A stretch of 64,000 nt of DNA from Pseudomonadota bacterium (GTDB taxonomy: Bacteria; Pseudomonadota; Gammaproteobacteria; Burkholderiales; Burkholderiaceae_C), in contig JAIUPH010000001.1 of NCBI GenBank assembly GCA_020161065.1, positions 1-64,000 on the forward strand, written 5' to 3'. Under the pieces are notes generated by a model, which worked only from the letters and a program-made list of their open reading frames with translations, was not told the origin of the DNA and searched no databases. A program made the translations under genes and the position numbers. Below are positions 5,272-55,288 of this stretch, piece after piece; positions within the stretch are counted from its first letter, which is position 1, and every line of letters starts with the position of its first letter.

Positions 5272-6423
5272 TCAGTCCGCGAGGTGCTCGCGACCCACTC
5301 GGGCCACATCGGCCAGGCCCATCAGTCCCAGCGAGCTGGCCAGTTCGTGTTCCATCTGGCCCAGCCAGCGCGCCACGCCGGCCTGGCCGCCGGCGGCGTT
5401 GGCGTAGACCCAGGGGCGGCCGACCATCACGCCGTCGGCGCCCAGCGCGCGGGCGCGGATGATGTCGTGCCCGCTGCGGATGCCGCCGTCGACCAGCACC
5501 GTGAGGCCGCGCCCGGCCAGGGCTTCGGTGATGCGCGGCAAGGCCGCGGCGGTGGCCACCGCGCCGTCCAGCTGGCGCCCGCCGTGGTTGGAGACGACGA
5601 TGCCCTGCACGCCGATGTCGGCGGCCCTGCGGGCGTCGTCGACCTCCAGGATGCCCTTGAGCAGGATGGGGCCCGGCCACTGCGCGCGCAGCCATTCGAT
5701 GTCTTGCCAGGTGACGCCGGCGTCGAACTGCGCGTCGACCCAGGTCCTGAAATCGGCCAGCGTGGTGGCCTTGGGCAGGTAGGGCCGCAGGTTGCCAAAC
5801 ACCAGCGGGCTGCCGCGCAGCGCCACGTCCCACGCCCAGCGCGGGTGGGCCAGCACCGAGCCGACGCGGCGCAAGGCCGCCGCACGGCCGCCGCCGCCGT
5901 CCATGCCGTGGCGCACGTCGGCCCGCCGCTGCCCCACGCGCGCCAGGTCGACGGTGAAGACCAGGACGGGGCATTGCACGGCCTGCGCGCGCTGCAGCAG
6001 CTCGCGCACGATGCCGCGGTCGCGCATCATGTAGAGCTGGTACCAGAACGGCGTGGCGGTCGCCGCGCGCACTTCTTCCATCGAGCAGATCGACGGCGTG
6101 CACAGCGTGAAGGGCACGCCGAAGGCCTGCGCCGCCAGCGCGGCCTGCACCTCGCCGCGGCGGCGCAGCGCGCCGCCCAGGCCCACCGGCGCCAGGGCCA
6201 GCGGCAGGCGGGCGTCGCAGCCGACCAGGCGGGTGGCGATGCGGCAGTCGGACACGTCGCGCAGCACGTGCTGGCGCAGGCGCAGTTGCTGCCAGGCAGC
6301 GACGTTGTCGCGCAGGGTCTGCTCGTCGCCGCTGCCGCCGTCGACGTAGCCGAACAGGAAGCCGGGCAGGCGCCGGCGCGCCAAGGCGCGCCAGTCGTCG
6401 AAGGAGGCGGCGGGTCGGGACAT
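5272..6423 (-). CDS. FMN-dependent 2-hydroxy-acid oxidase/dehydrogenase, 383 aa
   Basis: A member of the LldD/glycolate oxidase/mandelate dehydrogenase TIM-barrel family, which oxidises an (S)-2-hydroxy acid to the 2-keto acid using FMN. The N-terminal GYVDGGSGDEQTL motif is typical. The signature SNHGGRQLDG near residue 272 carries the catalytic His and the substrate-binding Arg. The C-terminal VDGGIRSGHDIIRA and GVMVGRPW form the phosphate site. It starts at ATG 6423, 16 bp after the dehydratase stop, and is last in a Bug receptor-dehydratase-oxidase operon. Substrate specificity is unknown; the operon context suggests a plant- or sugar-derived hydroxy acid. Confidence 0.85.
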   Translation of the reverse strand: MSRPAASFDDWRALARRRLPGFLFGYVDGGSGDEQTLRDNVAAWQQLRLRQHVLRDVSDCRIATRLVGCDARLPLALAPVGLGGALRRRGEVQAALAAQAFGVPFTLCTPSICSMEEVRAATATPFWYQLYMMRDRGIVRELLQRAQAVQCPVLVFTVDLARVGQRRADVRHGMDGGGGRAAALRRVGSVLAHPRWAWDVALRGSPLVFGNLRPYLPKATTLADFRTWVDAQFDAGVTWQDIEWLRAQWPGPILLKGILEVDDARRAADIGVQGIVVSNHGGRQLDGAVATAAALPRITEALAGRGLTVLVDGGIRSGHDIIRARALGADGVMVGRPWVYANAAGGQAGVARWLGQMEHELASSLGLMGLADVARVGREHLAD

Positions 6424-19396: not shown

Positions 19397-20732
<1,336 letters not shown>

Positions 20733-39159: not shown

Positions 39160-40160
39160 TCCCAGACGAAGGCGGTGGCGGCGTCGAACGGGTGGACGCG
39201 CTTCCAGTGGCGGGCGATGTCGATGCGCTTGGCGATCCACACCCGGTCGTGCGCCTGGACGTGGTCCAGGAAGCGCTGCAGCGCGCGCATGCGCCCCGGC
39301 CGGCCGAGCAGCCGGCAGTGCATGCCGATGCTCATCATCGCGGGCTGCCGCTCACCTTCGGCGTAATGCACGTCGAAGGCATCGCGCAGGTACGAGAAGA
39401 ACTCGTCGCCGTGCGAGAAGCCCTGCGGCAGCGCAAAGCGCATGTCGTTGCAGTCCAGCGTGTAGGGCACCACCAGCTGCGGCGCCAGCCGGCCGTCGCT
39501 CTTGCGCACCTGCAGCCACAACGGCAGGTCGTCGCCGTAGTAGTCGCTGTCGTACTCGAAGCCGCCTTCGTCGGCCACCAGGCGGCGCGTGCGCGGGCTG
39601 TCGCGCCCGGTGTACCAGCCCAGCGGCCGCGTGCCGGTGAGGCGCTCGATGGCCTGCACGCCCAGGCGCAGGTGCTCGCGCTCCACCGCCTCGGGCACGT
39701 CCTGGTAGTGGATCCAGCGCCAGCCGTGGCAGGCGATCTCGTGCCCGAGCTCGACGAAGGCCGCCGTCACCTCGGGGCAGCGTTCGAGCGCCATGCCGAC
39801 GCCGAACACCGTCAGCGGCAGCCGGCGGCGCTCGAACTCGCGCAGCAGCCGCCAGACGCCGACGCGCGAGCCGTACTCGTAGATGCCCTCCATGCTGAGG
39901 TGGCGGTCGGGGTAGGCGGCCGGGTTGAACATCTCCGACAGGAACTGCTCGCTGCCCGCGTCGCCGTGCAGCACGCTGTTCTCGCCGCCTTCCTCGTAGT
40001 TCAGCACGAACTGCAGCGCCACGCGGGCGTTGCCGGGCCACTGGGGGTGGGGCGGGTGGCGGCCGTGGCCGCGCAGGTCGCGCGGGTAGCGCGCATCGCT
40101 CGGGTCGCGCGCGTGGCTCGGGTCGCGCGCGTCGGCGCGTGGCGTGGTCATGGCGGTCAT
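39156..40160 (-). CDS. puuE: Cofactor-independent allantoinase PuuE, 334 aa
   Basis: Hydrolyses allantoin to allantoate. A polysaccharide-deacetylase-fold enzyme, unlike the metal-dependent amidohydrolase allantoinases. ARVALQFVLNYEEGGENS, then MEGIYEYGSRVGVWRLL and HEIACHGWRWIHYQD are diagnostic. The ATG at 40160 overlaps the regulator stop (ATGA). The first 25 residues are an extension containing a three-copy ARDPS-type repeat before the usual start (RYPRDLRGHGR), which makes it longer than the typical 310 aa. Confidence 0.93.
   Translation of the reverse strand: MTAMTTPRADARDPSHARDPSDARYPRDLRGHGRHPPHPQWPGNARVALQFVLNYEEGGENSVLHGDAGSEQFLSEMFNPAAYPDRHLSMEGIYEYGSRVGVWRLLREFERRRLPLTVFGVGMALERCPEVTAAFVELGHEIACHGWRWIHYQDVPEAVEREHLRLGVQAIERLTGTRPLGWYTGRDSPRTRRLVADEGGFEYDSDYYGDDLPLWLQVRKSDGRLAPQLVVPYTLDCNDMRFALPQGFSHGDEFFSYLRDAFDVHYAEGERQPAMMSIGMHCRLLGRPGRMRALQRFLDHVQAHDRVWIAKRIDIARHWKRVHPFDAATAFVWE
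40084..40137. repeat. 18-bp tandem repeat encoding the PuuE N-terminal extension
   Basis: Three 18-bp units (40084-40101, 40102-40119, 40120-40137), the last two differing at few positions, encode six-residue units (A-R-D-P-S-H/D, the last diverged) in puuE. Since the unit keeps frame, its copy number may vary among strains. Confidence 0.8.
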
Positions 40161-40882
40161 CCTCGGGGCTTGAGCACCGACGCCAGGTCGGGCGTGCGCG
40201 GGTCCAGGCGCAGGTTGCGCTCGACGCTCGTGATGTGCTGCTCCATCAGCCGTGCGGCGGCGCGGCCGTCGCGCTTTTCCAGCGCTTCGACGATCTGCAC
40301 GTGCTCGGTCTGCGAATGCTCGGCCGAGTGGCCCGACTGGTACATCAGCGCGATCAGCTGCGAGCGTGACAGCAGGTCGGCGATCAGCTGCGCCAGCACC
40401 TCGTTGCCCAGCAGCCGCGCCAGCACGACGTGGAAGTCGGCCAGCAGCCGCGTGCGGCCCGACACGTCGTTGCGCGAGACGGCGCTGCGCTCGTCGCGCA
40501 GGTGGGCGCGCAACTGCTCGATCTGCGCGTCGCTGATGTCGTGCGCCAGCTGGCGCGCCATGCCGCCTTCGACCAGCCGCCGCACCTGGAAGACCTGGCG
40601 CGCCTCGTCGATGCTGGGCATGGCGACGAAGGCGCCGCGCGCCGGCTCCAGCGTGACCAGGCGGTCGCGGCTGAGGCGGTTCAGCGCCTGGCGCACGACC
40701 GTGCGCGAGACCGCGAACACGTCGGCGATCTGCTGCTCGACCAGCTTGGTGCCGGGCATCAGGCGGCGCTCGACGATGGCGCCGGTGATCGACTCGACGA
40801 TCTGGTCGGTGCTGCTGGCCGGCGGCCGCGCGGCGCGCGCCGGGTCGACCAGCCGAAGCGGATTGGCCGGCTTTCTGGCCAT
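40157..40882 (-). CDS. GntR/FCD-family regulator, probable purine-catabolism repressor, 241 aa
   Basis: N-terminal winged HTH (about 25-85: IVERRLMPGTKLVEQQIADV and then SRTVVRQALNRLSRDRLV) and a C-terminal all-helical FCD ligand domain. ATG 40882 follows GGGAG and starts MARKPANP; the longer reading would run into the palindromic operator at 40914. It leads the operon regulator-puuE-uraD/allC-M20. The palindromes at 40914, 41008, 48104, 53132 and 53576 have the TGTATACA form seen for FCD-type operators, so I infer that it controls all the purine units, perhaps releasing DNA when an allantoin-pathway metabolite binds. Confidence 0.88.
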   Translation of the reverse strand: MARKPANPLRLVDPARAARPPASSTDQIVESITGAIVERRLMPGTKLVEQQIADVFAVSRTVVRQALNRLSRDRLVTLEPARGAFVAMPSIDEARQVFQVRRLVEGGMARQLAHDISDAQIEQLRAHLRDERSAVSRNDVSGRTRLLADFHVVLARLLGNEVLAQLIADLLSRSQLIALMYQSGHSAEHSQTEHVQIVEALEKRDGRAAARLMEQHITSVERNLRLDPRTPDLASVLKPRG

Positions 40883-41007: not shown

Positions 41008-41019
41008 ACTGTATACACT
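41008..41019 (+). promoter_or_regulatory. TGTATACA-type operator overlapping the puuD promoter
   Basis: ACTGTATACACT. Its TATACA could double as a -10 box. It ends 7 nt before the leader RNA element starting at 41027, the same spacing as at the permease gene (53589 to 53597). Confidence 0.68.
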
Positions 41020-41026
41020 TTGGCCT

Positions 41027-41083
41027 GGTCGCCGCGGGTTCCAGACGCGACCATCCGGCCTCACAGAGCCCGCCGTGGTGAGG
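41027..41083 (+). ncRNA. Structured puuD leader, candidate xanthine/urate riboswitch
   Basis: Helix A pairs GGTCGC (41027-41032) with GCGACC (41047-41052). Helix B pairs CCTCAC (41059-41064) with GTGAGG (41078-41083) around a 13-nt loop. GCGGG in loop A (41034-41038) can pair with CCCGC in loop B (41069-41073). The same elements, with G-U wobble substitutions in helix B, lie in front of the permease gene. A purine-oxidation context suggests the NMT1 (xanthine-I) riboswitch class, which senses xanthine and urate. I infer the class and cannot run a covariance search. Confidence 0.65.
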
Positions 41084-41150
41084 TGACGATGCGGCCGCCG
41101 GCGCGTCGGCTCGACGCCGGCCCGGCGGCCCCAGTTCGGAGACACCTTCG

Positions 41151-42374
41151 GTGGAAGCCTATCTGCTTGACTGGGCCAACGTGTTGCTGCGTTGGGTCCA
41201 CGTGATCACGGCCATTGCCTGGATCGGTTCATCGTTCTACTTCGTGCTGCTGGACAACAGCCTGTCGGCGCCGGAGGGCGACGAGCTCAAGGCCAAGGGC
41301 GTCGACGGCGAGATGTGGGCCGTGCACGGCGGCGGCTTCTACCACTCCAACAAGTACATGGTGGCGCCGCGCTGGCGGCCGCTGCCCGACAACCTGCACT
41401 GGTCGTACTGGGAAAGCTATTCGACGTGGCTGACCGGCTTCGGCCTCTTCACGGTGCTGTACCTGTTCAATGCCGGCAGCTTCCTGGTCGACAAGAGCAC
41501 GCACGACTGGTCGGCCGGCGCCGCCATCGCCGGCTCGCTCGGCTTCCTGGTGGCGTTCTGGGTCGTCTACGACCTGATCTGCCGCACGCTGGGCCAGCGC
41601 CGCAACGGCGACCTGATCGTCGGCTTGTGCGTGCTGGCCTTCGTCGTCTTCGCCTCCTGGCTGGCCTGCCAGTTGTTCGCCGGGCGCGCCGCCTTCCTGC
41701 TGGTCGGCGCCATGCTGGCGACGGCGATGAGCGCCAACGTCTTCTTCTGGATCATCCCCGGCCAGCGCACCGTGGTGGCGCAGCTGCGCGCCGGCGAGAA
41801 GCCCGACCCCATCCACGGCCAGCGCGGCAAGCAGCGCAGCGTGCACAACACCTACTTCACGCTGCCGGTGCTGATTGCCATGCTGTCCAACCACTACGGC
41901 TGGCTGTACCAGGGGCGCAACAACTGGCTGGTGCTGGTGCTGCTGATGCTGGCCGGCGCGCTGATCCGCCACAGCTTCGTGGCGCGCCACAAGGCCCACG
42001 TGCTGGGCCAGCGCGCGCCGTGGGAGTTTGCCGGCGCCGGCACGGTGGTGCTGATCGGCCTGGCGGTCTGGCTGGCGCCGCAGCCGCCCAGCGCCGAGCA
42101 GGTGGCGCAAGCCCAGGCGCTGGCCGCCAAGCCGGCCGGCTACGCCGCGGTGCGCGCCGTGATCGACCAGCGCTGCGTCATGTGCCATAACGCGCAACTT
42201 CAACAGAAGAACGTGGCGCTGCACGACGCCGAAGGCCTGAAGAAGAACGCGCTGAACGTCTACCAGCAGGCCGCCGTGCTGAAGCTGATGCCGCTGAACA
42301 ACGCCACGCAGATCACCGACGCGGAGCGCGAGTTGATCAAGCGCTGGTACGAGGCGGGCGCTGCGGTGCAGTGA
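41151..42374 (+). CDS. puuD: PuuD-type membrane urate oxidase with cytochrome c domain, 407 aa
   Basis: Oxidises urate to 5-hydroxyisourate and passes electrons to a cytochrome rather than to O2. The N-terminal membrane part starts VEAYLLDWANVLLRW and continues WIGSSFYFVLLDNSL, with about eight hydrophobic segments. A C-terminal cytochrome c domain carries the haem motif C342-V-M-C345-H346. Domain order and length match PuuD. It starts at GTG 41151 with GGAG nine nt upstream. Divergent from the GntR regulator, and behind an operator and the leader RNA at 41027-41083. Confidence 0.93.
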   Translation: MEAYLLDWANVLLRWVHVITAIAWIGSSFYFVLLDNSLSAPEGDELKAKGVDGEMWAVHGGGFYHSNKYMVAPRWRPLPDNLHWSYWESYSTWLTGFGLFTVLYLFNAGSFLVDKSTHDWSAGAAIAGSLGFLVAFWVVYDLICRTLGQRRNGDLIVGLCVLAFVVFASWLACQLFAGRAAFLLVGAMLATAMSANVFFWIIPGQRTVVAQLRAGEKPDPIHGQRGKQRSVHNTYFTLPVLIAMLSNHYGWLYQGRNNWLVLVLLMLAGALIRHSFVARHKAHVLGQRAPWEFAGAGTVVLIGLAVWLAPQPPSAEQVAQAQALAAKPAGYAAVRAVIDQRCVMCHNAQLQQKNVALHDAEGLKKNALNVYQQAAVLKLMPLNNATQITDAERELIKRWYEAGAAVQ

Positions 42375-42400
42375 TGGAGCCCCCGGCCGCTGGGGCGGCC

Positions 42401-42508
42401 GCCCCCCGAGGGGGCTACCAAACCCGACCGGCGAAGCCGGATCGGGTTTGGCGCTCTAACGACGCCGCTCCCCCTGGTCGCCTGCGGCGACCGGTCCCCG
42501 GGGGGACC
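42401..42508. repeat. Array of four stem-loops between convergent genes
   Basis: Four consecutive hairpins: GCCCCC/GGGGGC (42401-42415); a 15-bp stem beginning CCAAACCCGA with one bulged A (42418-42451); GGTCGCC/GGCGACC (42476-42492); and GGTCCCC/GGGGACC (42493-42508). They lie between the 3' ends of puuD and the permease gene at 42555. They probably act as a bidirectional terminator. The compound layout resembles dispersed intergenic repeats known from comamonads. Confidence 0.72.
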
Positions 42509-42554
42509 GCGATTTGGGCGCGCTGGCTTGCAGGCGCTCCATGCCGCGGCCGCA

Positions 42555-43244
42555 TCACCGCACGATGGCCACCCGGCTTTGCAGGCGCCGCACCTGCCAC
42601 GACAGCGCGTAGCAGATGAGGAAGTAGGCGATGGCGGCGAACACGTACATCTCGACCAGCCGCCCGTCGCGCTGGCCGATCTTGGTGGCGGCGCCCAGGA
42701 AGTCGGTGATCGAGAGCACGTAGACCAGCGACGTGTCCTGGAACAGCACGATGGTCTGGCTCAGCAGCACCGGCAGCATGTTGCGCAAGGCCTGCGGCAG
42801 CACGACGAGCGCCATCACCTGGCGGTAGCGCATGCCGAGCGCGTAGCCGGCCTGGGTCTGCCCCGGCGGCACCGAGCGGATGCCGGCGCGCACGATCTCG
42901 GCGAAGTACGCCGCCTCGAACATCGTGAAGGTGATGACGCTGGACCAGAACGCGCCGACCTTGATCGGCTCGTTCCTGCCGAGCGCCCAGGCGCCGACGT
43001 AGGGCACGAGGAAGTAGAACCAGAAGATCACCAGCAGCAGCGGCACCGCGCGGATCAGGTTCACGTAGGCCGCGGCGGCCACCGACAGCCAGCGCTGCGA
43101 CGACAGCCGCATCAGCGCCAGCACGGTGCCCAGCGCGGCGCCGCCGGCCGCCGCCAGCGCAGTGAGCGTCAGCGAAAAGACCAGCCCTTCGCTGAGCAGG
43201 TAGCGCAGGTTGCGCGCAACGACGCCGAAGTCCAGGCCGTCCAT
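42555..43244 (-). CDS. Amino-acid ABC permease, GltK-like, 229 aa
   Basis: HisM/GltK-type inner-membrane subunit for polar amino acid uptake. The coupling loop AEIVRAGIRSVPPGQTQAGYAL near residue 115-140 is diagnostic, with RQVMALVVLPQALRNMLPVL following. Several helices are present and length is typical. It lies 8 bp after the GltJ-like gene. No ATPase gene follows, so the transporter must borrow a GltL-like ATPase. Confidence 0.88.
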   Translation of the reverse strand: MDGLDFGVVARNLRYLLSEGLVFSLTLTALAAAGGAALGTVLALMRLSSQRWLSVAAAAYVNLIRAVPLLLVIFWFYFLVPYVGAWALGRNEPIKVGAFWSSVITFTMFEAAYFAEIVRAGIRSVPPGQTQAGYALGMRYRQVMALVVLPQALRNMLPVLLSQTIVLFQDTSLVYVLSITDFLGAATKIGQRDGRLVEMYVFAAIAYFLICYALSWQVRRLQSRVAIVR

Positions 43245-43252
43245 GGCGTTGC

Positions 43253-44002
43253 TCAGTGCCCCGCGCCGGCGGCCCAGGCGAGGCCGGGCACCGCGAGGCG
43301 CTTTTCCAGCCGCCGCATCAGCAGCACGACCGCCAGGTTCAGCACGACGTAGATGATGGTGGCCGCGGTGAAGGCCTCGAACACCTGGAAGCTGTATTCC
43401 TGGATCGCCCGCGCGGCGGCCGTCACCTCGACCAGGCCCACCGTCAGCGCCACCGAGCTGTTCTTGACGGCGTTGAGGAACTCCGAGGTGAGCGGCGGCA
43501 TGATGATGCGCAGGGCCATCGGCAGCAGCACGAAGCGGTAGGTCTGCGGCAGCGTCATGCCCAGCGCGGTGGCCGCCTGCTGCTGGCCGCGCGCCAGCGA
43601 CTGGATGCCGGCGCGCACCTGCTCGGCGACGCGCGCCGAGGTGAACAGCGCCAGCCCCAGCGTGGCCGGCAGGAAGGCGCCCCACGGCGGCTGGATCTGC
43701 TTGAGCGCCGTGCCCATCGACGCGGGCAGCAACTCCGGCACGACGAAGTACCACAGGAAGATCTGCACCAGCAGCGGCACGTTGCGGAACACGTCGACCC
43801 AGGCGGTGGCCAGCCGCACGATGCTGCGGTTGGGCAGCGTGCGCGCCACGCCGACGATGATGCCGAGCACCAGCGCCAGCGCCCAGGCGCTGAGCGCGAC
43901 CATCACCGTCCACGCCAGGCCCGACACCAGGGTGCCGAGGTAGGTGCCGGTGCCGTCAGGCGAAGGCTGCAGGAAGACGGCCCAGTTCCACGGGTAGTTC
44001 AT
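43253..44002 (-). CDS. Amino-acid ABC permease, GltJ-like, 249 aa
   Basis: First permease of the same transporter. NYPWNWAVFLQPSPDGTGTY at the N-terminus is characteristic of GltJ. The coupling loop AEQVRAGIQSLARGQQQAATAL and LTVGLVEVTAAARAIQ follow. It is 28 bp downstream of the binding-protein gene. Confidence 0.9.
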   Translation of the reverse strand: MNYPWNWAVFLQPSPDGTGTYLGTLVSGLAWTVMVALSAWALALVLGIIVGVARTLPNRSIVRLATAWVDVFRNVPLLVQIFLWYFVVPELLPASMGTALKQIQPPWGAFLPATLGLALFTSARVAEQVRAGIQSLARGQQQAATALGMTLPQTYRFVLLPMALRIIMPPLTSEFLNAVKNSSVALTVGLVEVTAAARAIQEYSFQVFEAFTAATIIYVVLNLAVVLLMRRLEKRLAVPGLAWAAGAGH

Positions 44003-44030
44003 CGGAGCTTGGCGCAGCGCCGGCGGCGGA

Positions 44031-44924
44031 TCAGACGCCGCGGTCGTTCGGGCTGTCGAGCGCCTCTTTCAGCGACGGCGTCATCGGGAAGTTCAGGTTC
44101 ACGCCCTTGGGCGGGATCGGGCTCATGAACCACTTGTTGTACAGGCGCGTGAACTCGCCGCTCTTGTACAAGGCGGCCAGCGTGCGGTCGACCAGGGCCT
44201 TGAACGCCGGGTCGTCCTTGCGCACGATCAGGCCGTAGGGCTCGACCCGCAGCGCGTCGTCGACGAGGCGCCAGCCGGCCGGGTTGTTGCTGCCGGCCAC
44301 CAGGCTGGCAAGCAGGATGTCGTCCATCACGAAGGCTTCGGTGCGGCCGGTGGTCAGCGTCAGGAACGAGGCGGCGTGGTCGGGGCTGAGCACCTTGTTG
44401 ACCTGGAACTTCTTGTCCTGTTCGCGCGCGGTGAGCAAGGCGATGGAGGTCGACGCCGCGGTGAAGGCCACCGGCTTGCCCGCCAGGTCTTCGAAGGTCT
44501 TGACGGCCGAGTCCTTGCGCACGACCGCGCGGATGCTGGAGACGAAGTAGGTGTTGCTGAAGGCGACGACCTTCTGCCGCTCCAGCGTGTTGGTGGCCGG
44601 GCCGCAGACGATGTCGATGGTGCCGTTCTGGATCAGCGGGATCTGGTTGCTGAGCTGCACCGGCTGCAGCTTCACCTGGACGGCGGGCAGCTTCAGCTCG
44701 GCCTTGACGGCATCGACCACCTTCGCGCACAGGTCCATCGCGAAGCCGATGGGCTTTTGCTGATCGTCGAGGTACGAGAACGGCACCGACACCTCGCGGT
44801 GCCCGAGGCGGATCTCGCCGGCATCGCGGATCTTGCCCAGCGTGCCGCCGGGCGACTGCGCCAGCGCGGGAAGGGCGGCAGCCAGCGCCAGGGCCGCGAA
44901 GGTGGTGGACAGGGTTCGGTTCAT
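44031..44924 (-). CDS. Amino-acid binding protein, GltI-like, 297 aa
   Basis: Periplasmic glutamate/aspartate-type receptor. Signal peptide residues 1-22 (ending ALAQ); GTLGKIRDAGEIRLGHREVSVP is the N-terminal GltI motif. PLIQNGTIDIVCGPATNTLERQ is the ligand-domain motif, and the C-terminal region is GEFTRLYNKWFMSPIPPKG. The ligand is probably an acidic or related amino acid. Cotranscribed with the FAD oxidase and GntR genes upstream. Confidence 0.9.
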   Translation of the reverse strand: MNRTLSTTFAALALAAALPALAQSPGGTLGKIRDAGEIRLGHREVSVPFSYLDDQQKPIGFAMDLCAKVVDAVKAELKLPAVQVKLQPVQLSNQIPLIQNGTIDIVCGPATNTLERQKVVAFSNTYFVSSIRAVVRKDSAVKTFEDLAGKPVAFTAASTSIALLTAREQDKKFQVNKVLSPDHAASFLTLTTGRTEAFVMDDILLASLVAGSNNPAGWRLVDDALRVEPYGLIVRKDDPAFKALVDRTLAALYKSGEFTRLYNKWFMSPIPPKGVNLNFPMTPSLKEALDSPNDRGV

Positions 44925-44965
44925 CGTGGACTCCGGTGGGACGGACAAGCGGCGGCGCGCAGGGC

Positions 44966-45634
44966 TCAGCGCGCCGAGGTGGACGGGAAGCGGCCGATGC
45001 CCGGCCGCGGGCTGGCCTTGCGCCGCAGCACGGCGCGCGTGTGCTCGATGTGCTGCTCCAGCAGCTGCAGCGACCGCGCCACGCTGCCGCGCGCGCAGGC
45101 GTCGAGGATCTCGTGGTGTTCGCGCTGCGCATCGTCGCGGCCCACGGTGGCCGAGATGTAGGTGCGCATGAAGTGCGAGTTCATCAGCGCCACGTCCTCG
45201 ATCATCTTGACGAGCAGCGGGCGGCCCGAGGCCGCGTACAGCGTGAGGTGGAACGCCAGGTTGAGGTCGCGCCACTCCTGCGGGCTGTCGCTGCGGTCGT
45301 AGGTGCCCAGGATCGAGGCGGCCTTGTCCAGGATCTCGCGGGTGAGCTTGGGCACCGCCAGCTTGAGCGCGCGCACTTCCAGCGCGATGCGGATGTCGAG
45401 CATCTCCTCGATCTCTTCGAGGCTGCGCGTCGACACGAAGGCGCCCTTGTGCAGCTCGGTCTTCACCAGCCCTTCGGCCTCCAGCTGCTTGAGCGCCTCG
45501 CGCACCGGCACCCGGCTGACGCCGAACTGCTCGGCCAGCGCTTCCTGGCGGATCTGCAGGCCGGGCGCGAGCACGCCGTTGAGGATGTCGTCGCGCAGGG
45601 TCCTGACGATGTGCAGCGCGGCGGGTTCGGTCAT
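44966..45634 (-). CDS. GntR/FCD-family regulator, 222 aa
   Basis: Winged HTH at about 10-75 (QIRQEALAEQFGVSRVPVRE, then ALKQLEAEGLVKTE) and a C-terminal FCD domain. It sits between the FAD oxidase and the GltI-like gene on the same strand, 28 bp after the former. It probably represses this operon through the ATCCAA/TTGGAT sites at 47064-47089. Confidence 0.88.
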   Translation of the reverse strand: MTEPAALHIVRTLRDDILNGVLAPGLQIRQEALAEQFGVSRVPVREALKQLEAEGLVKTELHKGAFVSTRSLEEIEEMLDIRIALEVRALKLAVPKLTREILDKAASILGTYDRSDSPQEWRDLNLAFHLTLYAASGRPLLVKMIEDVALMNSHFMRTYISATVGRDDAQREHHEILDACARGSVARSLQLLEQHIEHTRAVLRRKASPRPGIGRFPSTSAR

Positions 45635-45662
45635 CGATCGGCTCCCGGATCCGAAGGCGCGC

Positions 45663-47033
45663 CTACAGGCTGCCCTTGCCGCTGCGCGCCAGCTCGGCCA
45701 TCAGCGCCGCGTCGCCGTAGCGCGCGGCGGACAGCGCGTGCGCGTACGCCGGCACGGCCGATCCCGTGACCCAGGCGGCGCAGATCGCGCCGGTGGCGCA
45801 AGCCGCCATCGAGCCGAAGCCCGACAGCGCGCCGGCGACGAAGCTGCCCGGCGCGCGCATCGGCCCGATCAGCGGCCAGTTCTCCTCGGTCATCGTGTAG
45901 TAGCCGCCGTAGTGGTGCGCGCCGCGCGGCAGGTGGCCGATGTAGGCGGCCAGGCGCGGGTGCAGGCGGCTCGCCCCGCGCAGCACGATGTCGGGGAAGT
46001 GCGGGTCGATCGGCTCGTCGGCGTGGGGGTCGCTGGCCGTCTCGTTGTAGGCCCAGCCGAGCTTGATCCAGTCGCCGTCGACGGCGCCGTCGGGGCGGCA
46101 ATGGATGCCGCCCGTCATCGGCTCCACCAGCCGCCGCGTGGCGGGGTCGGCGGCCAGCAGGGCGCGGTCTTCGGCGTCCCAGGCGAGTTGCTGGCCGTCG
46201 AGGTCGATGGTGAACGGCATGTCGCGGGCGATCGCCGCCTCGCGGTCGCGAAACGAGATCTTCTGCTGGTAGACGCACTTCACCGGCAGGTCTTCGCCCA
46301 GCATGCGCGCGATGTCGCGCACGAAAGGGCCGGCGGCATTGACGATGCGCTCGGTACGCAGCGTCTCGACGCCGGCGTCGGTCTGCAATTCCAGGGTGTA
46401 GGGCGCGCCGCCGCCGATGGCGCGCACCGCGGCGCGGCGCACGCGAACGCCCGCCGGGCGCATGGCCTCCAGCATGGCCTGCCCCATCTGCTGCGCGCTG
46501 ATCGAGCCGGCGCGGCGGATGTGGATGACCGTCGCCACGTCGTCGGCGTAGGCCGGGAAGGCGCTGCGGATCAGCGCCCGGTCCAGCAGCACGTCGACAC
46601 CGTCCGGCGCCGCGGTCCAGGGGCTGCGCAGCGAGCGCTGGTAGTCGGCGTCGTCCGCCTCGCGCAGGCGGATGCGGCCGGGCGTCTCGCCGTAGCCGCG
46701 ATACAGCTCGTCGATCAGGTCCGCGGGGCGCGCGCGCCGCGTCACCAGCGCGTAGCCGCCGCGCGTCATGTTCAGGCGCCCGCCGGAGGTCCGGTCGAGT
46801 TCCTCCATCAGCGTGATCGAATGGTCGGTGAAGGCCGTCATCACCGGGTGCGGCCACCAGTTGCGGTAGTTCTCGCCGGACTGCGCCGAGGTCAGGCTCA
46901 TCGGGTCGCGCGGATCGAGCACCGCGACGCGGGTCACCGCATGACGCGTGACCAGGTAGTACGCGACCGCGAGGCCGATGCTGCCGGCGCCGATTACGGC
47001 GACGTCGACCGAGTTCTGTTCAGGGGCTGGCAC
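45663..47033 (-). CDS. FAD-dependent oxidoreductase (DAO/sarcosine oxidase-like), 456 aa
   Basis: Flavoprotein oxidase of an amine or amino acid. VDVAVIGAGSIGLAVAYYL is the dinucleotide fold; SGENYRNWWPHPVM is the loop after it; GFGSMAACATGAICAAWVTG at the C-terminus closes the FAD site. GTG 47033 is preceded by GGAG at good spacing; a longer in-frame reading would cross the operator palindromes, so I reject it. The neighbouring amino-acid transporter suggests the imported compound is its substrate. Confidence 0.82.
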   Translation of the reverse strand: MPAPEQNSVDVAVIGAGSIGLAVAYYLVTRHAVTRVAVLDPRDPMSLTSAQSGENYRNWWPHPVMTAFTDHSITLMEELDRTSGGRLNMTRGGYALVTRRARPADLIDELYRGYGETPGRIRLREADDADYQRSLRSPWTAAPDGVDVLLDRALIRSAFPAYADDVATVIHIRRAGSISAQQMGQAMLEAMRPAGVRVRRAAVRAIGGGAPYTLELQTDAGVETLRTERIVNAAGPFVRDIARMLGEDLPVKCVYQQKISFRDREAAIARDMPFTIDLDGQQLAWDAEDRALLAADPATRRLVEPMTGGIHCRPDGAVDGDWIKLGWAYNETASDPHADEPIDPHFPDIVLRGASRLHPRLAAYIGHLPRGAHHYGGYYTMTEENWPLIGPMRAPGSFVAGALSGFGSMAACATGAICAAWVTGSAVPAYAHALSAARYGDAALMAELARSGKGSL

Positions 47034-47063
47034 CGAGGCTCCGGGAAGAAGATCCGTTTTCAG

Positions 47064-47089
47064 ATCCAAGATTGGATCCAAAACTGGAT
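47064..47089. promoter_or_regulatory. Overlapping ATCCAA/TTGGAT palindromes, GntR operator candidate
   Basis: ATCCAA (47064-47069) and TTGGAT (47072-47077) form a perfect inverted repeat. TTGGATCCAA (47072-47081) is itself a 10-bp palindrome, and ATCCA/TGGAT (47076-47089) adds a third dyad. They lie 31-56 bp upstream of the FAD oxidase start, as expected for an FCD repressor. Confidence 0.65.
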
Positions 47090-47168
47090 GCGAATGTAGC
47101 CTCGATTCCGCGGCCACGGCCTGGGACTTACCCGCTGGCGAACGTTGCCGGGCGCCAGCGCGCCGCAG

Positions 47169-48095
47169 CTAAGCCTCGCGGTCCCACCAATCCCCTTGCA
47201 GCTGCGCCTGCAGCCAGCGGATGAAGGCACTCACCTTCTGCGGCACCAGCTTGGGCGACGGGAAGACGGCGTGCACTTCCTGCGACGGCAGCGTGTGCTC
47301 GGCCAGCAGCGGCACGATGCGGCCCGCGCGCAGCGACTCGCCGGCCACGTAGCGCGGCAGCACGGCCAGGCCGAAGCCGGCCTCGCAGGCGGCCAGCACC
47401 GTGGTCAGGTTGTTCGATCGCAGCGGGCCGCGCACCGGCACCGCGAGGTCGCCGCCGGCCTGGTCCTGGCGACCCTTGGCGCCGTGGAACAGCCAGCGCG
47501 CATCGCCCTGCACGCTGCTGTAGACCAGGCAGGCATGGTCGACCAGGGCGGCCGGGTGCTCGGGCGCGCCGTGGCGCGCCAGGTAGGCCGGCGCCGCGAC
47601 CAGCACCCAGGGGTTGCTGCCCAGGTAGCTGGCGCCCAGCGTGGAGTCGGCCAGGCGGCCCATGCGGATGGCCACGTCGACGCCTTGCTCCACCAGGTTG
47701 ACGTAGCGGTCGTCGAGGCCGAGGTCGATCTGCAGCGCCGGGTGCTCGCGCATGTAGCGCAGCACCAGCGGCGCCATCACGCGGCGACCGAAGGCCACCG
47801 AGGTGTTCAGGCGCAGCGTGCCGCCGGCCACGCCGGCGCCTTGCGCGGCCACCTGCTCGGCCTCGGCGAAGTGGTGCGCGGCGAGCTTGCAGCGCTCGTA
47901 GTACAGGCTGCCCAGCTCGGTCGGCGCGACGCCGCGCGTCGTGCGGTGCAGCAGCCGAGCGCCCAGCCGGCGCTCGGCCTCGGCCACCGCCTTGGTGGCG
48001 GTGGGCTGCGTCATGCCCAGTTCCGCCGCGGCCTTGCTGAAGCTGCCGGTCTCGACGACGCGCATGAAGGTCAGCATCGTGGTCATTCGGTCCAT
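47169..48095 (-). CDS. LysR-family regulator divergent from gcl, 308 aa
   Basis: N-terminal HTH (TFMRVVETGSFSKAAAELGM, TQPTATKAVAEAERRLGARL) followed by a LysR effector domain. ATG 48095 (MDRMTTML) is preferred; an earlier in-frame ATG would cover the operator at 48104-48115. A slightly later ATG at 48086 is also possible. It probably regulates the glyoxylate operon (gcl-hyi-reductase-kinase) through the dyad at 48127-48141. Confidence 0.88.
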   Translation of the reverse strand: MDRMTTMLTFMRVVETGSFSKAAAELGMTQPTATKAVAEAERRLGARLLHRTTRGVAPTELGSLYYERCKLAAHHFAEAEQVAAQGAGVAGGTLRLNTSVAFGRRVMAPLVLRYMREHPALQIDLGLDDRYVNLVEQGVDVAIRMGRLADSTLGASYLGSNPWVLVAAPAYLARHGAPEHPAALVDHACLVYSSVQGDARWLFHGAKGRQDQAGGDLAVPVRGPLRSNNLTTVLAACEAGFGLAVLPRYVAGESLRAGRIVPLLAEHTLPSQEVHAVFPSPKLVPQKVSAFIRWLQAQLQGDWWDREA

Positions 48096-48103
48096 GAGAC
48101 AAA

Positions 48104-48115
48104 AGTGTATACAGC
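48104..48115. promoter_or_regulatory. TGTATACA-type operator at gcl/LysR
   Basis: AGTGTATACAGC, one half perfect and one relaxed, just upstream of the LysR start and about 104 bp before gcl. It links glyoxylate assimilation to the putative GntR purine regulon. Confidence 0.62.
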
Positions 48116-48126
48116 ACGGCCGCCGC

Positions 48127-48141
48127 ATTCCATACCGGAAT
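48127..48141. promoter_or_regulatory. LysR-type dyad at gcl
   Basis: ATTCC (48127-48131) and GGAAT (48137-48141) are inverted with a 5-nt spacer, in the divergent LysR/gcl region. A candidate LysR binding half-site pair. Confidence 0.45.
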
Positions 48142-48218
48142 AGCACTTATCCGATCCCTTGGCTTCTCAAGCCGGCGGCCGGCTCCGATCATCGATGCCG
48201 TTCTTCCAGGAGTCGACG

Positions 48219-50024
<1,806 letters not shown>

Positions 50025-50045
50025 CCCCACCGAGGAGACAAGCCC

Positions 50046-50825
50046 ATGCCCAAGTTCGCCGCCAACCTGACCATGCTGTTCAACGAGGCGCCGTTCCTCG
50101 ACCGCTTCGCGCTGGCGCGCAAGGCGGGGTTCGACGCCGTCGAGTTCCTTTTTCCCTATGCCTGGCCGGCGGCCGAGATCCGCGCGCGCTTGGACGCGCA
50201 GCGGCTGCAGCTCGTGCTGCACAACCTGCCGGCCGGCGACTGGGACGCCGGCGAGCGCGGCATCGCCTGCCTGCCCGACCGCGTGAGCGAGTTCCGCGAC
50301 GGCGTGGGCCGCGCGATCGACTACGCCAAGGCGCTGGGCGTGCCGCAGCTCAACTGCCTGGCCGGCAAGGCGCCGGCCGACGTACCGGCCGCCGAACTGC
50401 GCCGCACGCTGGTGGGCAACCTGCGCTACGCGGCGGCCGAGCTGGCGGCCGCCGGGCTCAAGCTGCTGGTCGAGCCGATCAACACCTACGACATCCCCGG
50501 CTTCTATCTCTGCCGCAGCGCGCAGACCATCGACATCCTCGACGAGGTGGGCGCGAGCAACGCCTACCTGCAATACGACATCTACCACCTGCAGCGCATG
50601 GAAGGCGAGCTGGCGGCGACGATCGAGCGGCTGCTGCCGCGCATCGCGCACATCCAGCTGGCCGACAACCCGGGGCGCCACGAGCCCGGCAGCGGCGAAA
50701 TCAACTACCGCTACCTGTTCGCGCTGCTCGACCGCATCGGCTACCGCGGCTGGATCGGCTGCGAATACAAGCCCGCGGCGTCCACCGAGGCGGGCCTCGG
50801 CTGGCTGCAGCAGCTGGCGCGCTGA
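50046..50825 (+). CDS. hyi: Hydroxypyruvate isomerase, 259 aa
   Basis: TIM-barrel isomerase interconverting hydroxypyruvate and tartronate semialdehyde. KFAANLTMLFNEAPFLDRFA is the family N-terminus. Metal ligands are suggested by LVEPIN, YDIYHLQRM, HIQLADNPGRHEPG and GCEYKP. It lies 21 bp after gcl with GAGGAG before the ATG. Confidence 0.92.
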   Translation: MPKFAANLTMLFNEAPFLDRFALARKAGFDAVEFLFPYAWPAAEIRARLDAQRLQLVLHNLPAGDWDAGERGIACLPDRVSEFRDGVGRAIDYAKALGVPQLNCLAGKAPADVPAAELRRTLVGNLRYAAAELAAAGLKLLVEPINTYDIPGFYLCRSAQTIDILDEVGASNAYLQYDIYHLQRMEGELAATIERLLPRIAHIQLADNPGRHEPGSGEINYRYLFALLDRIGYRGWIGCEYKPAASTEAGLGWLQQLAR

Positions 50826-50850
50826 AACGAATCGAACGAAGGACTTCGCG

Positions 50851-51768
50851 ATGACCACCAACCCCCTGAAGATCGGCTTCATCGGCCTGGGCATCATGGG
50901 CGCGCCGATGGCGGGCCACCTGCTGCGCGCCGGGCACACGCTGTACGTGTACACGCGCGGCAAGCTGCCGGCCGCGATCGCCGAGAGCCGGGCCACACAG
51001 TGCACGCACGCGCGCGGCGTGGCCGAGCGCGCCGACCTCGTCATCACCATGCTGCCCGACACGCCCGACGTGGCGGCCGTGCTGTTCGGCAAGGACGGCG
51101 TGGCCGAAGGCCTGTCGACGGGCAAGGCGGTGGTCGACATGTCGTCCATCTCGCCGGTGGAGACGCAGGCCTTCGCCGCGCGCATCGAGGCGCTGGGCTG
51201 CGACTACCTCGACGCGCCGGTCTCCGGCGGCGAGGTGGGCGCGAAGAACGCCACGCTGTCCATCATGTGCGGCGGCAAGCCCGCGGTGTTCGATCGCATC
51301 AAGCCGGTGCTCGAAGCCATGGGCAAGAACATCAGCCTGGTCGGCGCCAGCGGCGCCGGCCAGACCTGCAAGGTGGCCAACCAGATCGTCGTGGCACTGA
51401 CCATCAACGCGGTGGCCGAAGGCCTGCTGTTCGCCGCCCGCGCCGGCGCCGACCCCGCCAAGGTGCGGCAGGCGCTGCTGGGCGGGCTGGCCAGCTCGCG
51501 CATCCTCGAAGTGCTGGGCGAGCGCATGGTCCAGCGCAACGTCACGCCGGGCTTTCGCATCGCGCTGCACCAGAAGGACCTGAACCTCGCGCTCGGCGCG
51601 GCCAAGTCGCTGGGCCTGGCCTTGCCGGCCACCGCGACGGCGCAGCAGCTCTTCAACGCCTGCGTGGCGCATGGCGGCGCCGGCTGGGACCATTCGGGCC
51701 TGGTGCGCGCGCTGGAGAAGCTGTCCAACTTCGAGATCGGGCAGCCGGCGTCTGACGTGGGCCGCTGA
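50851..51768 (+). CDS. glxR: Tartronate semialdehyde reductase, 305 aa
   Basis: Reduces tartronate semialdehyde (2-hydroxy-3-oxopropionate) to D-glycerate with NAD(P)H. IGFIGLGIMGAPMAGHLLRA is the Rossmann motif; DAPVSGGEVGAKNATLSIMC is the family substrate loop; the catalytic Lys is in QTCKVANQIVV near residue 171. Its place after gcl and hyi fixes the role within the beta-hydroxyacid dehydrogenase family. Confidence 0.92.
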   Translation: MTTNPLKIGFIGLGIMGAPMAGHLLRAGHTLYVYTRGKLPAAIAESRATQCTHARGVAERADLVITMLPDTPDVAAVLFGKDGVAEGLSTGKAVVDMSSISPVETQAFAARIEALGCDYLDAPVSGGEVGAKNATLSIMCGGKPAVFDRIKPVLEAMGKNISLVGASGAGQTCKVANQIVVALTINAVAEGLLFAARAGADPAKVRQALLGGLASSRILEVLGERMVQRNVTPGFRIALHQKDLNLALGAAKSLGLALPATATAQQLFNACVAHGGAGWDHSGLVRALEKLSNFEIGQPASDVGR

Positions 51769-51777
51769 AGCCGCCTC

Positions 51778-53115
51778 GTGACGGCCATCGTGACGGACAT
51801 GGTCACGCCCGCCGATCTGCTGCGCCGCATGTTCGACGCGGCGATCGCCTCGGCGCAGCCGGCGCTGTGCGTGCCGCGCTTCCTGCCCGACCTGTCGAGC
51901 GTAACGGGCAGGGTCGTCGTCATCGGCGCCGGCAAGGCCTCGGCGGCGATGGCGCAGGCGCTGGAGCAGCATTGGCGCGGCCAGCCAGGGCTGGAGCGGG
52001 TCTCCGGCCTCGTCGTTACCCGCTACGGCTACGCCGCGCCTTGCGAGCGCATCGAGATCGTCGAGGCGGCGCACCCCGTGCCCGATGCGGCCGGCGAAGC
52101 CGCGGTGCGGCGGATGCTCGAAACGGTGAGCGGCCTGCGCGCCGACGACCTCGTGCTGTGCCTGATCTCGGGCGGCGGCTCGGCCTTGCTGCCGCTGCCG
52201 AGCGCCGGGCTGACGCTGTCCGACCTGCAGCACGTCAACCGCGCGCTGCTGGCCAGCGGCGCGACGATCGGCGAGATGAACACCGTGCGCCGCCACCTCT
52301 CGGCCATCAACGGCGGGCGCCTGGCCGCGGCCTGCCATCCGGCGCGGGTGCTGACGCTGCTGATCTCCGACGTGCCCGGCGACCGGCCGATCGACATCGC
52401 CTCGGGCCCCACCGTCGCCGACCCGACCACGTGCGCCGACGCGCTGGCCATCGTGCGCCGCTGGCGTCTCGACCTGCCCGACGCCGCCAGACGCCTGCTC
52501 GAATCGGGCGAGGGCGAGTCGGTCAAGCCGGGCGACCCGCGGCTGGCGCGCGGCAGCGCGCACATCGTCGCCGCGCCGCAGCTGGCGCTGGAGGCGGCGG
52601 CCGCCGTGGCGCGCGCGGCCGGCTACGCGGCGCACATCCTCGGCGACGCCATCGAGGGCGAGGCGCGCGACGTCGGCACCGTGCTGGCCGGCATCGCGCG
52701 GCAGGTGGCCGGGCGCGGCCAGCCTTTCTCGCCGCCTTGCGTGCTGCTGTCGGGCGGCGAGACCACGGTCACGCTGCGCGGCGCGGGCAGCGGCGGCCGC
52801 AACGTCGAATGCCTGCTGGCCGCCGCCATCGCCTTGGACGGCTGCGCGCGCGTGCACGGCCTGGCCGGCGACACCGACGGCGTCGACGGCGCCGAGGAGA
52901 TCGCCGGCGCCGTGATCGCGCCCGACACGCTGGCCCGCGCCTGGGCGCTGGGGTTGAAGCCGGCCGACGAGCTGGCCAACAACAACGGGCACGGCTTCTT
53001 CCAGGCCCTCGGCGACTCGGTGCTGACCGGGCCCACGCGCACCAACGTCAACGACTTCCGCGCCCTGCTGATCGAAGCCGGGGCCGAGGTCGACGCCGAG
53101 GCCGCGGCGCGCTAG
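51778..53115 (+). CDS. ttuD: Glycerate 2-kinase (TtuD/MOFRL type), 445 aa
   Basis: Phosphorylates glycerate, probably to 2-phosphoglycerate, feeding lower glycolysis. VVVIGAGKASAAMAQAL near residue 47, CLISGGGSALLPLP near 128 and a C-terminal MOFRL domain (SGGETTVTLRGAGSGGRNVE, then GLAGDTDGVDG) are diagnostic. I use GTG 51778; an ATG seven codons later (51799) is an alternative. Only 9 bp from the reductase stop, so the four genes form one operon. Confidence 0.9.
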   Translation: MTAIVTDMVTPADLLRRMFDAAIASAQPALCVPRFLPDLSSVTGRVVVIGAGKASAAMAQALEQHWRGQPGLERVSGLVVTRYGYAAPCERIEIVEAAHPVPDAAGEAAVRRMLETVSGLRADDLVLCLISGGGSALLPLPSAGLTLSDLQHVNRALLASGATIGEMNTVRRHLSAINGGRLAAACHPARVLTLLISDVPGDRPIDIASGPTVADPTTCADALAIVRRWRLDLPDAARRLLESGEGESVKPGDPRLARGSAHIVAAPQLALEAAAAVARAAGYAAHILGDAIEGEARDVGTVLAGIARQVAGRGQPFSPPCVLLSGGETTVTLRGAGSGGRNVECLLAAAIALDGCARVHGLAGDTDGVDGAEEIAGAVIAPDTLARAWALGLKPADELANNNGHGFFQALGDSVLTGPTRTNVNDFRALLIEAGAEVDAEAAAR

Positions 53116-53131
53116 CCGAATGGATGCCGGG

Positions 53132-53143
53132 GCGTATACAGTT
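53132..53143 (+). promoter_or_regulatory. TGTATACA-type operator at uraH
   Basis: GCGTATACAGTT, 29 bp upstream of uraH. One half matches the consensus and the other is relaxed, so this is the weakest of the five. Confidence 0.5.
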
Positions 53144-53172
53144 TGCCTTTTTCTTGGCGAGGAGATCGACCG

Positions 53173-53532
53173 ATGGGCCACCTGAGCACGCATGTGCTGG
53201 ACACCGCCAACGGCTGCCCGGCCGCCGGCATGCAGGTCGTTCTGCAGCAAGGGCAGGGCGACGGCGGCTTCCGCACCGTCAAGACCGTCACGCTCAACGC
53301 CGACGGCCGCAGCGACGGCGGGCCGCTGCTCGACGCCGCGGCCATGGCCGCGGGGCGCTGGCGACTGGCGTTCCACGTGGCCGACTACTTCCGCGGCCGC
53401 GGCGCGGCGCTGCCCGAGCCGCCCTTCATCGACGTGGTGAACCTCGACTTCGGCATCGCCGATGCGCAAGGCCACTACCACGTGCCGCTGCTCGTCAGCC
53501 CGTTCAGCTACAGCACGTATCGAGGGTCCTGA
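53173..53532 (+). CDS. uraH: 5-hydroxyisourate hydrolase (transthyretin-related), 119 aa
   Basis: Hydrolyses the PuuD product to OHCU. Family landmarks: N-terminal HLSTHVLDTANGCPA, internal RWRLAFHVADYF, and the C-terminal tetrapeptide YRGS that closes the active site. ATG 53173 follows GAGGAG; an earlier in-frame ATG overlaps the operator. It lies 57 bp after the kinase and probably has its own promoter. Confidence 0.95.
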   Translation: MGHLSTHVLDTANGCPAAGMQVVLQQGQGDGGFRTVKTVTLNADGRSDGGPLLDAAAMAAGRWRLAFHVADYFRGRGAALPEPPFIDVVNLDFGIADAQGHYHVPLLVSPFSYSTYRGS

Positions 53533-53575
53533 ACCTCGCGATCCACGGGTAATCCCGGTACAAGATCGAACACGA

Positions 53576-53589
53576 AACTGTATACAGTT
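53576..53589 (+). promoter_or_regulatory. TGTATACA-type operator at the purine permease
   Basis: AACTGTATACAGTT is a perfect 14-bp palindrome, the best of the set. Its TATACA may serve as a -10 box. The leader RNA element starts 8 nt downstream. Confidence 0.72.
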
Positions 53590-53596
53590 CACCCCA

Positions 53597-53748
53597 GGTC
53601 GCCGCGGGTTTCCGGTTTCCGCCGGGATTGCGACCCACGCTCCTCACAGAGCCCGCTGTGGTGGGGGGAAGACCGATCGGCCCTGGCCGCGGCTTCCCCA
53701 TCCCGATCCTGCCGCCCCTGCGAGTGCCGCGCGCCGCCCTGTGAGGAG
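53597..53748 (+). ncRNA. Permease leader: candidate xanthine/urate riboswitch with anti-Shine-Dalgarno arm
   Basis: Helix A is GGTCGC (53597-53602) with GCGACC (53630-53635). Helix B is CCTCAC (53642-53647) with GTGGGG (53661-53666), 13-nt loop. GCGGG (53604-53608) can pair with CCCGC (53652-53656). All match the puuD leader in order. CTCCTCACAG (53640-53649) is also perfectly complementary over 10 nt to CTGTGAGGAG (53739-53748), the ribosome-binding site of the permease. Forming helix B would therefore free the site. The predicted switch direction (ligand turns translation on) is inference. Confidence 0.65.
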
Positions 53749-53755
53749 ACCGTCG

Positions 53756-55288
<1,533 letters not shown>

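Follow-up and report, generated by a model that had tools for sequence, protein, structure and literature searches.

A conserved pseudoknotted leader RNA before urate oxidase and permease genes of Burkholderiales, a candidate riboswitch for urate or a related purine

Why should the leaders of two genes at separate places of one contig share the same elements in the same order? The question is raised by a stretch of 64,000 nucleotides (henceforth the window; contig JAIUPH010000001.1, assembly GCA_020161065.1) from a bacterium of the Burkholderiaceae_C, in which such leaders precede puuD, encoding a membrane urate oxidase, and the gene of an NCS2 nucleobase permease. An initial annotation, made from the window sequence, had seen in them a structured mRNA leader, likely a xanthine or urate riboswitch of the xanthine-I (NMT1) class. 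We regard it as practically certain that the leaders carry a conserved cis-acting RNA. Our preferred reading, to which we give a probability of roughly 0.55, is that this pseudoknotted cis-regulatory RNA is the aptamer of an undescribed riboswitch class for urate or a near relative.

The three elements that the initial annotation had listed, GGTCGCCGCGGGTT, GCGACC and CTCACAGAGCCCGC, can be read directly in both leaders, and the 14-mer GGTCGCCGCGGGTT has no further exact copy in the 6.29 Mb genome. They are part of a shared architecture made up of a stem P1, a variable inner hairpin P1b, a stem P2 with a loop of 13 nucleotides (nt) and a GCGG/CCGC pseudoknot joining the P1 region to the P2 loop. 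Between the two leaders one arm of P2 changes from GTGAGG to GTGGGG with pairing and loop length kept, just as had been described, and the contact proposed as possible between GCGGG and CCCGC is available in both. With R1, a covariance model made in this analysis whose training set includes both window leaders, the bacterium's own genome gave two matches at E values up to 1e-4, both of them the window leaders. The RNA measures 62 to about 100 nt.

Table 1. Positions of the leader RNA elements, promoter-like boxes and associated genes in the window (MFE, minimum free energy).
Feature	Position	Strand	Details
Leader RNA of puuD, whole R1 match	41025..41086	+	64.8 bits, E 2.1e-8
Leader RNA of NCS2 permease, whole R1 match	53595..53669	+	75.9 bits, E 2.0e-10
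Shared element GGTCGCCGCGGGTT	41027-41040; 53597-53610		puuD leader; permease leader
Shared element GCGACC	41047-41052; 53630-53635		puuD leader; permease leader
Shared element CTCACAGAGCCCGC	41060-41073; 53643-53656		puuD leader; permease leader
P1 of puuD leader, GGTCGC/GCGACC	41027-41032/41047-41052	+	pseudoknot strand GCGG 41034-41037 between arms
P1 of permease leader, GGTCGC/GCGACC	53597-53602/53630-53635	+	pseudoknot strand GCGG 53604-53607
P1b of permease leader, CCGG/CCGG	53612-53615/53622-53625	+	inside P1
P2 of puuD leader, CCTCAC/GTGAGG	41059-41064/41078-41083	+	13-nt loop 41065-41077; pseudoknot strand CCGC 41070-41073
P2 of permease leader, CTCCTCAC/GTGGGGGG	53640..53668	+	13-nt loop 53648-53660; pseudoknot strand CCGC 53653-53656
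P2 core of permease leader, CCTCAC/GTGGGG	53642-53647/53661-53666		
GCGGG, able to pair with CCCGC	41034-41038 with 41069-41073; 53604-53608 with 53652-53656		puuD leader; permease leader
Possible competing hairpin P3 (GGGGAAG...CTTCCCC)	53665..53699	+	in MFE folds; takes part of P2 3' arm; weakly supported across members
-10-like element overlapping GTATAC palindrome, before puuD leader	41011..41019	+	putative promoter and operator
-10-like element overlapping GTATAC palindrome, before permease leader	53580..53588	+	putative role
puuD, membrane urate oxidase	41151..42374	+	PF06181 Urate_ox_N, E 9.9e-127
NCS2 nucleobase permease, TIGR03173 xanthine permease subfamily	53756..55288	+	PF00860, E 2.1e-101; TIGR03173, 503.7 bits (cut-off 414.15)
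GntR/FCD regulator, divergent neighbour of puuD	40157..40882	-	PF00392, PF07729

Relatives were collected by BLAST with the puuD leader in 150 genomes of the family, which gave 15 loci beyond the two window leaders that passed a motif filter, and by a gapped-pattern scan of a genome collection (84,980 species), which gave 83 stretches. Eight of these (L044, L079, L093, L094, L095, L113, L114, L118) were dropped by eye as chance, having neither puuD nor permease downstream and no conserved bases outside the pattern, and L009 was dropped as a copy of L001; a record named Planctomycetota fell among the chance matches. With the window, 93 true rows were left, 85 of them distinct. The genes behind the 93 rows (87 parsed by script; L020, L086, L072 and L120 by eye) are puuD in 75, an NCS2 permease in 16, Peripla_BP_6 in one (L108) and Lumazine_bd_2 in one (L089). 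Eighty R1 hits fetched with their flanks, several from the same organisms, stand before puuD (78, L226 being counted by eye), a permease (1) or Lumazine_bd_2 (1), which means that puuD or permease lies downstream in 91/93 BLAST and pattern rows and in 79/80 fetched model hits. The outliers, L108 and L089 (with L159, from the same organism), might hint at the ligand, or might be copies that have moved. Some true rows carry only the broad names of metagenome-assembled genomes, and the named hosts of pattern matches (Roseateles, Pelomonas, Rubrivivax, Pseudorhodoferax, Azohydromonas, Piscinibacter, Hydrogenophaga, Variovorax, Massilia and Pseudoduganella) we take to be Burkholderiales.

The structure was assessed in A3, a MAFFT alignment of the 85 distinct members that was not fitted to any structure, and in A4 and A5, which were fitted to R1 and whose pair counts therefore lean towards the model; A3 and A4 share organisms and their counts are not to be summed. 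Misaligned rows are L010 and L099:1892 in A3, where the 5' ends were set on a copy of the P1 start that lies upstream, and L224 in A4. In A3, 95.4% of the P2 cells are paired and six of the seven P2 pairs show two-sided changes. Over the whole structure such changes affect 11 pairs (mean of shuffles 8.1) and 134 cells (mean 63.3), none of 500 column shuffles matched the covariation, and sliding the partners lowered every measure. The search pattern partly fixed P1 in A3, and P1 was therefore counted on 79 model hits, in which pair 2 is GC in 73, AU in 4 and GU in 2, and pair 3 is UA in 60, UG in 11 and CG in 8; the 5' variants GTCGC, GCCGC, ATCGC and CTCGC each come with a matching 3' arm. RNAalifold recovers P1 and P2 unaided, and P1b is a variable hairpin (51-61% paired) poorly described by fixed columns. 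Some A5 rows, L258, L256 and L280 among them, have G facing G in place of the innermost C-G of P2 (CTCAGAG...GTGGTGAG), apparently a non-canonical pair at the loop boundary.

Pseudoknot cells are paired in 99.4% (A4) and 98.5% (A5) of cases, and one pair changes on both sides. The near-invariance in A3 and A4 is by itself uninformative, because the search pattern partly imposed it. At pair 3 in A5 (n=34) there are 20 G-C, 3 G-U, 10 A-U and one other, the shift being seen in two genera. A pattern for pseudoknot variants had given 40 matches, of which 30 became loci, 13 of them before puuD and 17 looking like chance. The pattern brought 11 rows into A5 with the 3' base of pair 3 fixed; their 5' partner was free and is A or G in 11/11; L243 and L246, found without that pattern, also show A-U. 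In one A-U row (L290) the next pseudoknot pair is broken. P1 and P2 are thus strongly backed by covariation and the pseudoknot is backed at one pair. The claim of a conserved structured leader common to the puuD and permease mRNAs stands on compensatory changes in both helices.

Could the conservation reside in the DNA, as an operator? A GTATAC palindrome does precede the RNA: in 115 of 165 member rows, drawn from two sets that overlap, it lies no more than 44 nt before the TCGC of P1 (median distance 13 nt, background 0.0095 per upstream window). But G-U pairs far exceed A-C in the core helix cells (28 against 3 in A3, 57 against 4 in the structure-fitted A4), from which it follows that the RNA lies on the mRNA strand. 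The RNA is also present where the palindrome is absent. With compensatory changes and strand bias both against it, we rejected the operator reading, which has almost no chance of being right. The placement of GTATAC and of a -10-like TACACT suggests that transcripts begin near P1. What the members have in common is a conserved structure on the sense strand, set between a promoter-like box and a start codon and attached almost exclusively to two genes. Conserved RNA structure in a 5' leader, one general mark of riboswitches, is present here, with transcription of the stretch presumed.

Genome surveys used R1 at E 1e-4 and samples were scored with stricter filters, so that the counts are lower bounds. 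The RNA was found in at least 115 of 299 genomes of the family (67 of 141 genera), in at least 6 of 399 genomes of an order sample (the window's own, four more of the family and one outside it) and in at least 1 of 369 of a class sample, again the window's own. Within 150 family genomes, 123 have puuD and 61 have R1 matches, 59 of these together with puuD. From 64 puuD genomes without an R1 hit we fetched 39 puuD leaders, 23 of which carry the RNA in a leader-only search (E up to 3.9e-4). Thirteen of the other 16 have a same-strand open reading frame of at least 60 amino acids whose end lies within 50 nt upstream of puuD; this suggests that those puuD genes are operon-internal, with the reservation that long chance reading frames are common in such GC-rich DNA.

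To which class might such an RNA belong? All 4227 families of Rfam 15 were searched. At the gathering cut-offs neither the window nor any of 12 member loci gave a match. Both leaders at E up to 10 gave only weak unrelated matches (mir-622, ALIL, sX14, PyrR204), and 20 divergent members at E up to 5 gave four (P35, Atu_L6, mir-9209, radC), none at the motif. All of these are far below their cut-offs and were set aside; those of mir-622 and sX14 overlap the motif, yet they are unrelated families seen once each. The ZTP model had no match in the window, in either leader (E up to 10), in the 12 member loci or in the 20 divergent members (E up to 5).

Membership in xanthine-I had been inferred in the initial annotation, which named the lack of a covariance-model hit in its own refutation test. 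The model (RF03054, Xanthine) gave no match in the window, in either leader at E up to 10 or elsewhere in the genome. This negative is informative because the model works at other loci of the same family, in 19 of 100 genomes. Eleven of the 19 (G023, G068, G085, G039, G064, G071, G077, G011, G020, G075, G074) carry both RNAs, at separate places; on one contig (G023:C82) R1 lies at 5507-5581 and RF03054 at 19835/20040, spanning 19835-20092. In 10 of the 19, RF03054 occurs as a divergent pair some 70-275 bases apart. The architecture differs as well. NMT1 forms a single hairpin interrupted by an internal bulge, a rod made up of P1, P2a and P2b whose junctions J1-2a, J2b-2a and J2a-1 are conserved (PMC7373994), and in the xanthine-I crystal structure a single long-range base pair links J1 and J2 (PMC8266621), whereas the present RNA has two separate covarying stems and a pseudoknot, a word absent from PMC7373994. 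The likeness is that of a proteobacterial leader RNA at purine-oxidation genes with almost no intrinsic terminators (PMC7373994), while the NMT1 genes are others (dioxygenases, NMT1-like, tauA). We therefore abandoned the xanthine-I identity.

In outline, the layout resembles that of ZTP (pfl), whose subdomains P1/P2 and P3 are joined by a J1/2-L3 pseudoknot and whose competing terminator hairpin forms only once P3 and the pseudoknot open (PMC10687018). Both RNAs link an internal joint to a hairpin loop, here GCGG between P1 and P1b with CCGC in the P2 loop. They differ in their genes, in the missing Rfam match and in terminators, which are not general in the present RNA; the pseudoknot and loop bases of ZTP presumably differ too. 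A divergent member of a known purine class (xanthine-I/NMT1, ZTP or purine) would account for the purine genes and, through ZTP, for the two-subdomain J1/2-L3 layout (PMC10687018), but lacks any match at gathering cut-offs in a family where RF03054 is found at other loci, and we consider it very unlikely. We found no report of a urate-selective riboswitch in the openly available literature searched, and no urate or puuD RNA motif in the available portions of PMC7373994, PMC8266621, PMC11109978, PMC8632094, PMC4562309 and PMC10687018. The leader RNA, matching no catalogued family, is likely novel, short of proof.

The sequence between P2 and the gene bears on how such an RNA could act. Among 152 distinct leaders (138 puuD, 14 NCS2), 57 have a start codon that follows the innermost P2 pair with at most 40 nt in between; the other 95, both window leaders included, are longer, some with a hairpin reusing the P2 3' arm. 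A GGAG/AGGA-type site starts 8-13 nt past the innermost P2 pair in 23 of the 57 short leaders, so that the folded RNA adjoins the Shine-Dalgarno there. Single leaders offer striking complementarities: ahead of the permease start, GTGAGGAG (53741-53748) complements CTCCTCAC of P2, in L097 GTGAGGAA is the complement of TTCCTCAC, and in L016 the P2 3' arm GTGAGGGG meets CCCCTCAC downstream. Across members a P3/anti-Shine-Dalgarno switch is weak against mononucleotide shuffles and swapped leaders, and we do not put it forward as the mechanism of the class. Intrinsic termination as a general output was rejected, being at best that of a minority.

Whether a small molecule or a protein reads the fold is a further question. 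A regulator or general RNA-binding protein might recognise it and control translation or decay of both mRNAs; conserved loop bases with covarying stems describe protein sites too, and the expression platform is not uniform. However, the 21 invariant and 10 near-invariant A3 columns (many pattern-fixed) around the pseudoknot, together with the restriction to two genes, look to our judgement more like a pocket, and the regulator beside puuD is, among the window proteins scanned, of the DNA-binding GntR/FCD type. A protein site therefore seems rather unlikely, and that the RNA is a riboswitch is a view we hold with fair confidence.

Gene context by itself makes xanthine or urate plausible as ligand. 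GTATACA has 9 strand matches in the window against 0.20 expected, at five places (40917, 41011, 48107, 53134 and 53580) that front or adjoin the regulator, puuD, gcl, uraH and permease genes. These probably mark out a regulon of purine and glyoxylate genes under the GntR/FCD protein, which likely binds the GTATAC sites. Such repressor control would share promoters and sites with the leader RNA, but would act on DNA and at all five places, whereas the RNA occurs at only two, the puuD and permease promoters. Because these two serve urate oxidase and a permease for which urate is a plausible substrate, we prefer urate to a general nitrogen signal, this being our main ground; urate or a close purine is the ligand towards which we lean. 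A riboswitch of the same build sensing a non-purine, such as a nitrogen or glyoxylate signal, and turning the genes OFF when nitrogen is plentiful would suit the Shine-Dalgarno-like sites just past P2, where a closed fold could block the ribosome, and the continuation of the cluster to glyoxylate genes. At gcl and uraH, however, where GTATACA is also present, the RNA was not found, and we deem this alternative unlikely.

Under the urate reading, the RNA would head the puuD mRNA and, in some genomes, the NCS2 permease mRNA, with transcripts initiated close to P1 by way of the -10-like box. The bound ligand, urate or a close relative of it, would close the pseudoknot and stabilise P2, with the output mainly at translation initiation, since terminator-like hairpins are few. 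An ON switch, by which importer and oxidase would be made when urate is present, is favoured over an OFF switch at about two to one, on biology rather than on sequence, because a substrate should induce its own import and degradation. The fullest version, a dedicated urate class built as a two-subdomain pseudoknot of a kind not related to xanthine-I, which would switch on uric-acid import and oxidation in Burkholderiales alongside a GntR repressor at the same promoters, we put forward tentatively, its chances being somewhat below even.

Several observations weigh against the urate riboswitch. Folded singly, the sequences do not stand out (z -0.64 to 0.19 in four folds), and the evidence for structure is for this reason comparative rather than energetic. 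The puuD leader alone folds otherwise than proposed, and a 150-nt fold of the permease leader loses P1 and P2; its short form (53595-53670) is the only one whose MFE fold gives P1, P1b and a P2-like hairpin. Pseudoknot covariation comes down to one pair in two genera, with the 3' base pattern-fixed in 11 of 34 rows, and the innermost P2 pair is non-standard in 15/34 (A5) and 9/79 (A4). As to the platform, 19 of the 57 short leaders have no recognisable Shine-Dalgarno. Pairing of the P2 3' arm with downstream sequence scores z -0.44. For pairing between the Shine-Dalgarno region and the 5' arm of P2, long leaders score z -0.59, or -0.27 when compared with swapped leaders, and short leaders z -0.01. 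Of the 95 long leaders 7 have a terminator-like hairpin, where shuffled sequences gave a mean of 1.45 and never more than 4. Two loci (L250, L267) have a GTATA box before puuD yet no RNA, and the outlier genes, Peripla_BP_6 and Lumazine_bd_2, have no obvious use for urate.

The surroundings of the two leaders form a region that, by its gene content, leads from urate to glycerate. Besides puuD, whose family functions as urate oxidase (PMC4562309), the permease and the GntR/FCD regulator, it contains genes for glyoxylate carboligase, hydroxypyruvate isomerase, 2-hydroxy-3-oxopropionate reductase, hydroxyisourate hydrolase and a DUF4147/MOFRL protein whose matches to glycerate-2-kinase models stay below their cut-offs. 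Between puuD and gcl, 42555-48146 holds minus-strand genes for ABC transporter permeases, a solute-binding protein, an FAD oxidoreductase (DAO) and a LysR regulator, apparently an insert within the purine cluster.

The RNA is compact, common in one family and attached to two genes whose products probably have a substrate in common. Should urate prove to be its ligand, nature would here provide a sensor for a metabolite of clinical importance, and one bacterial family would hold a second, independent RNA solution for oxidised purines, side by side with xanthine-I in 11 of its genomes.

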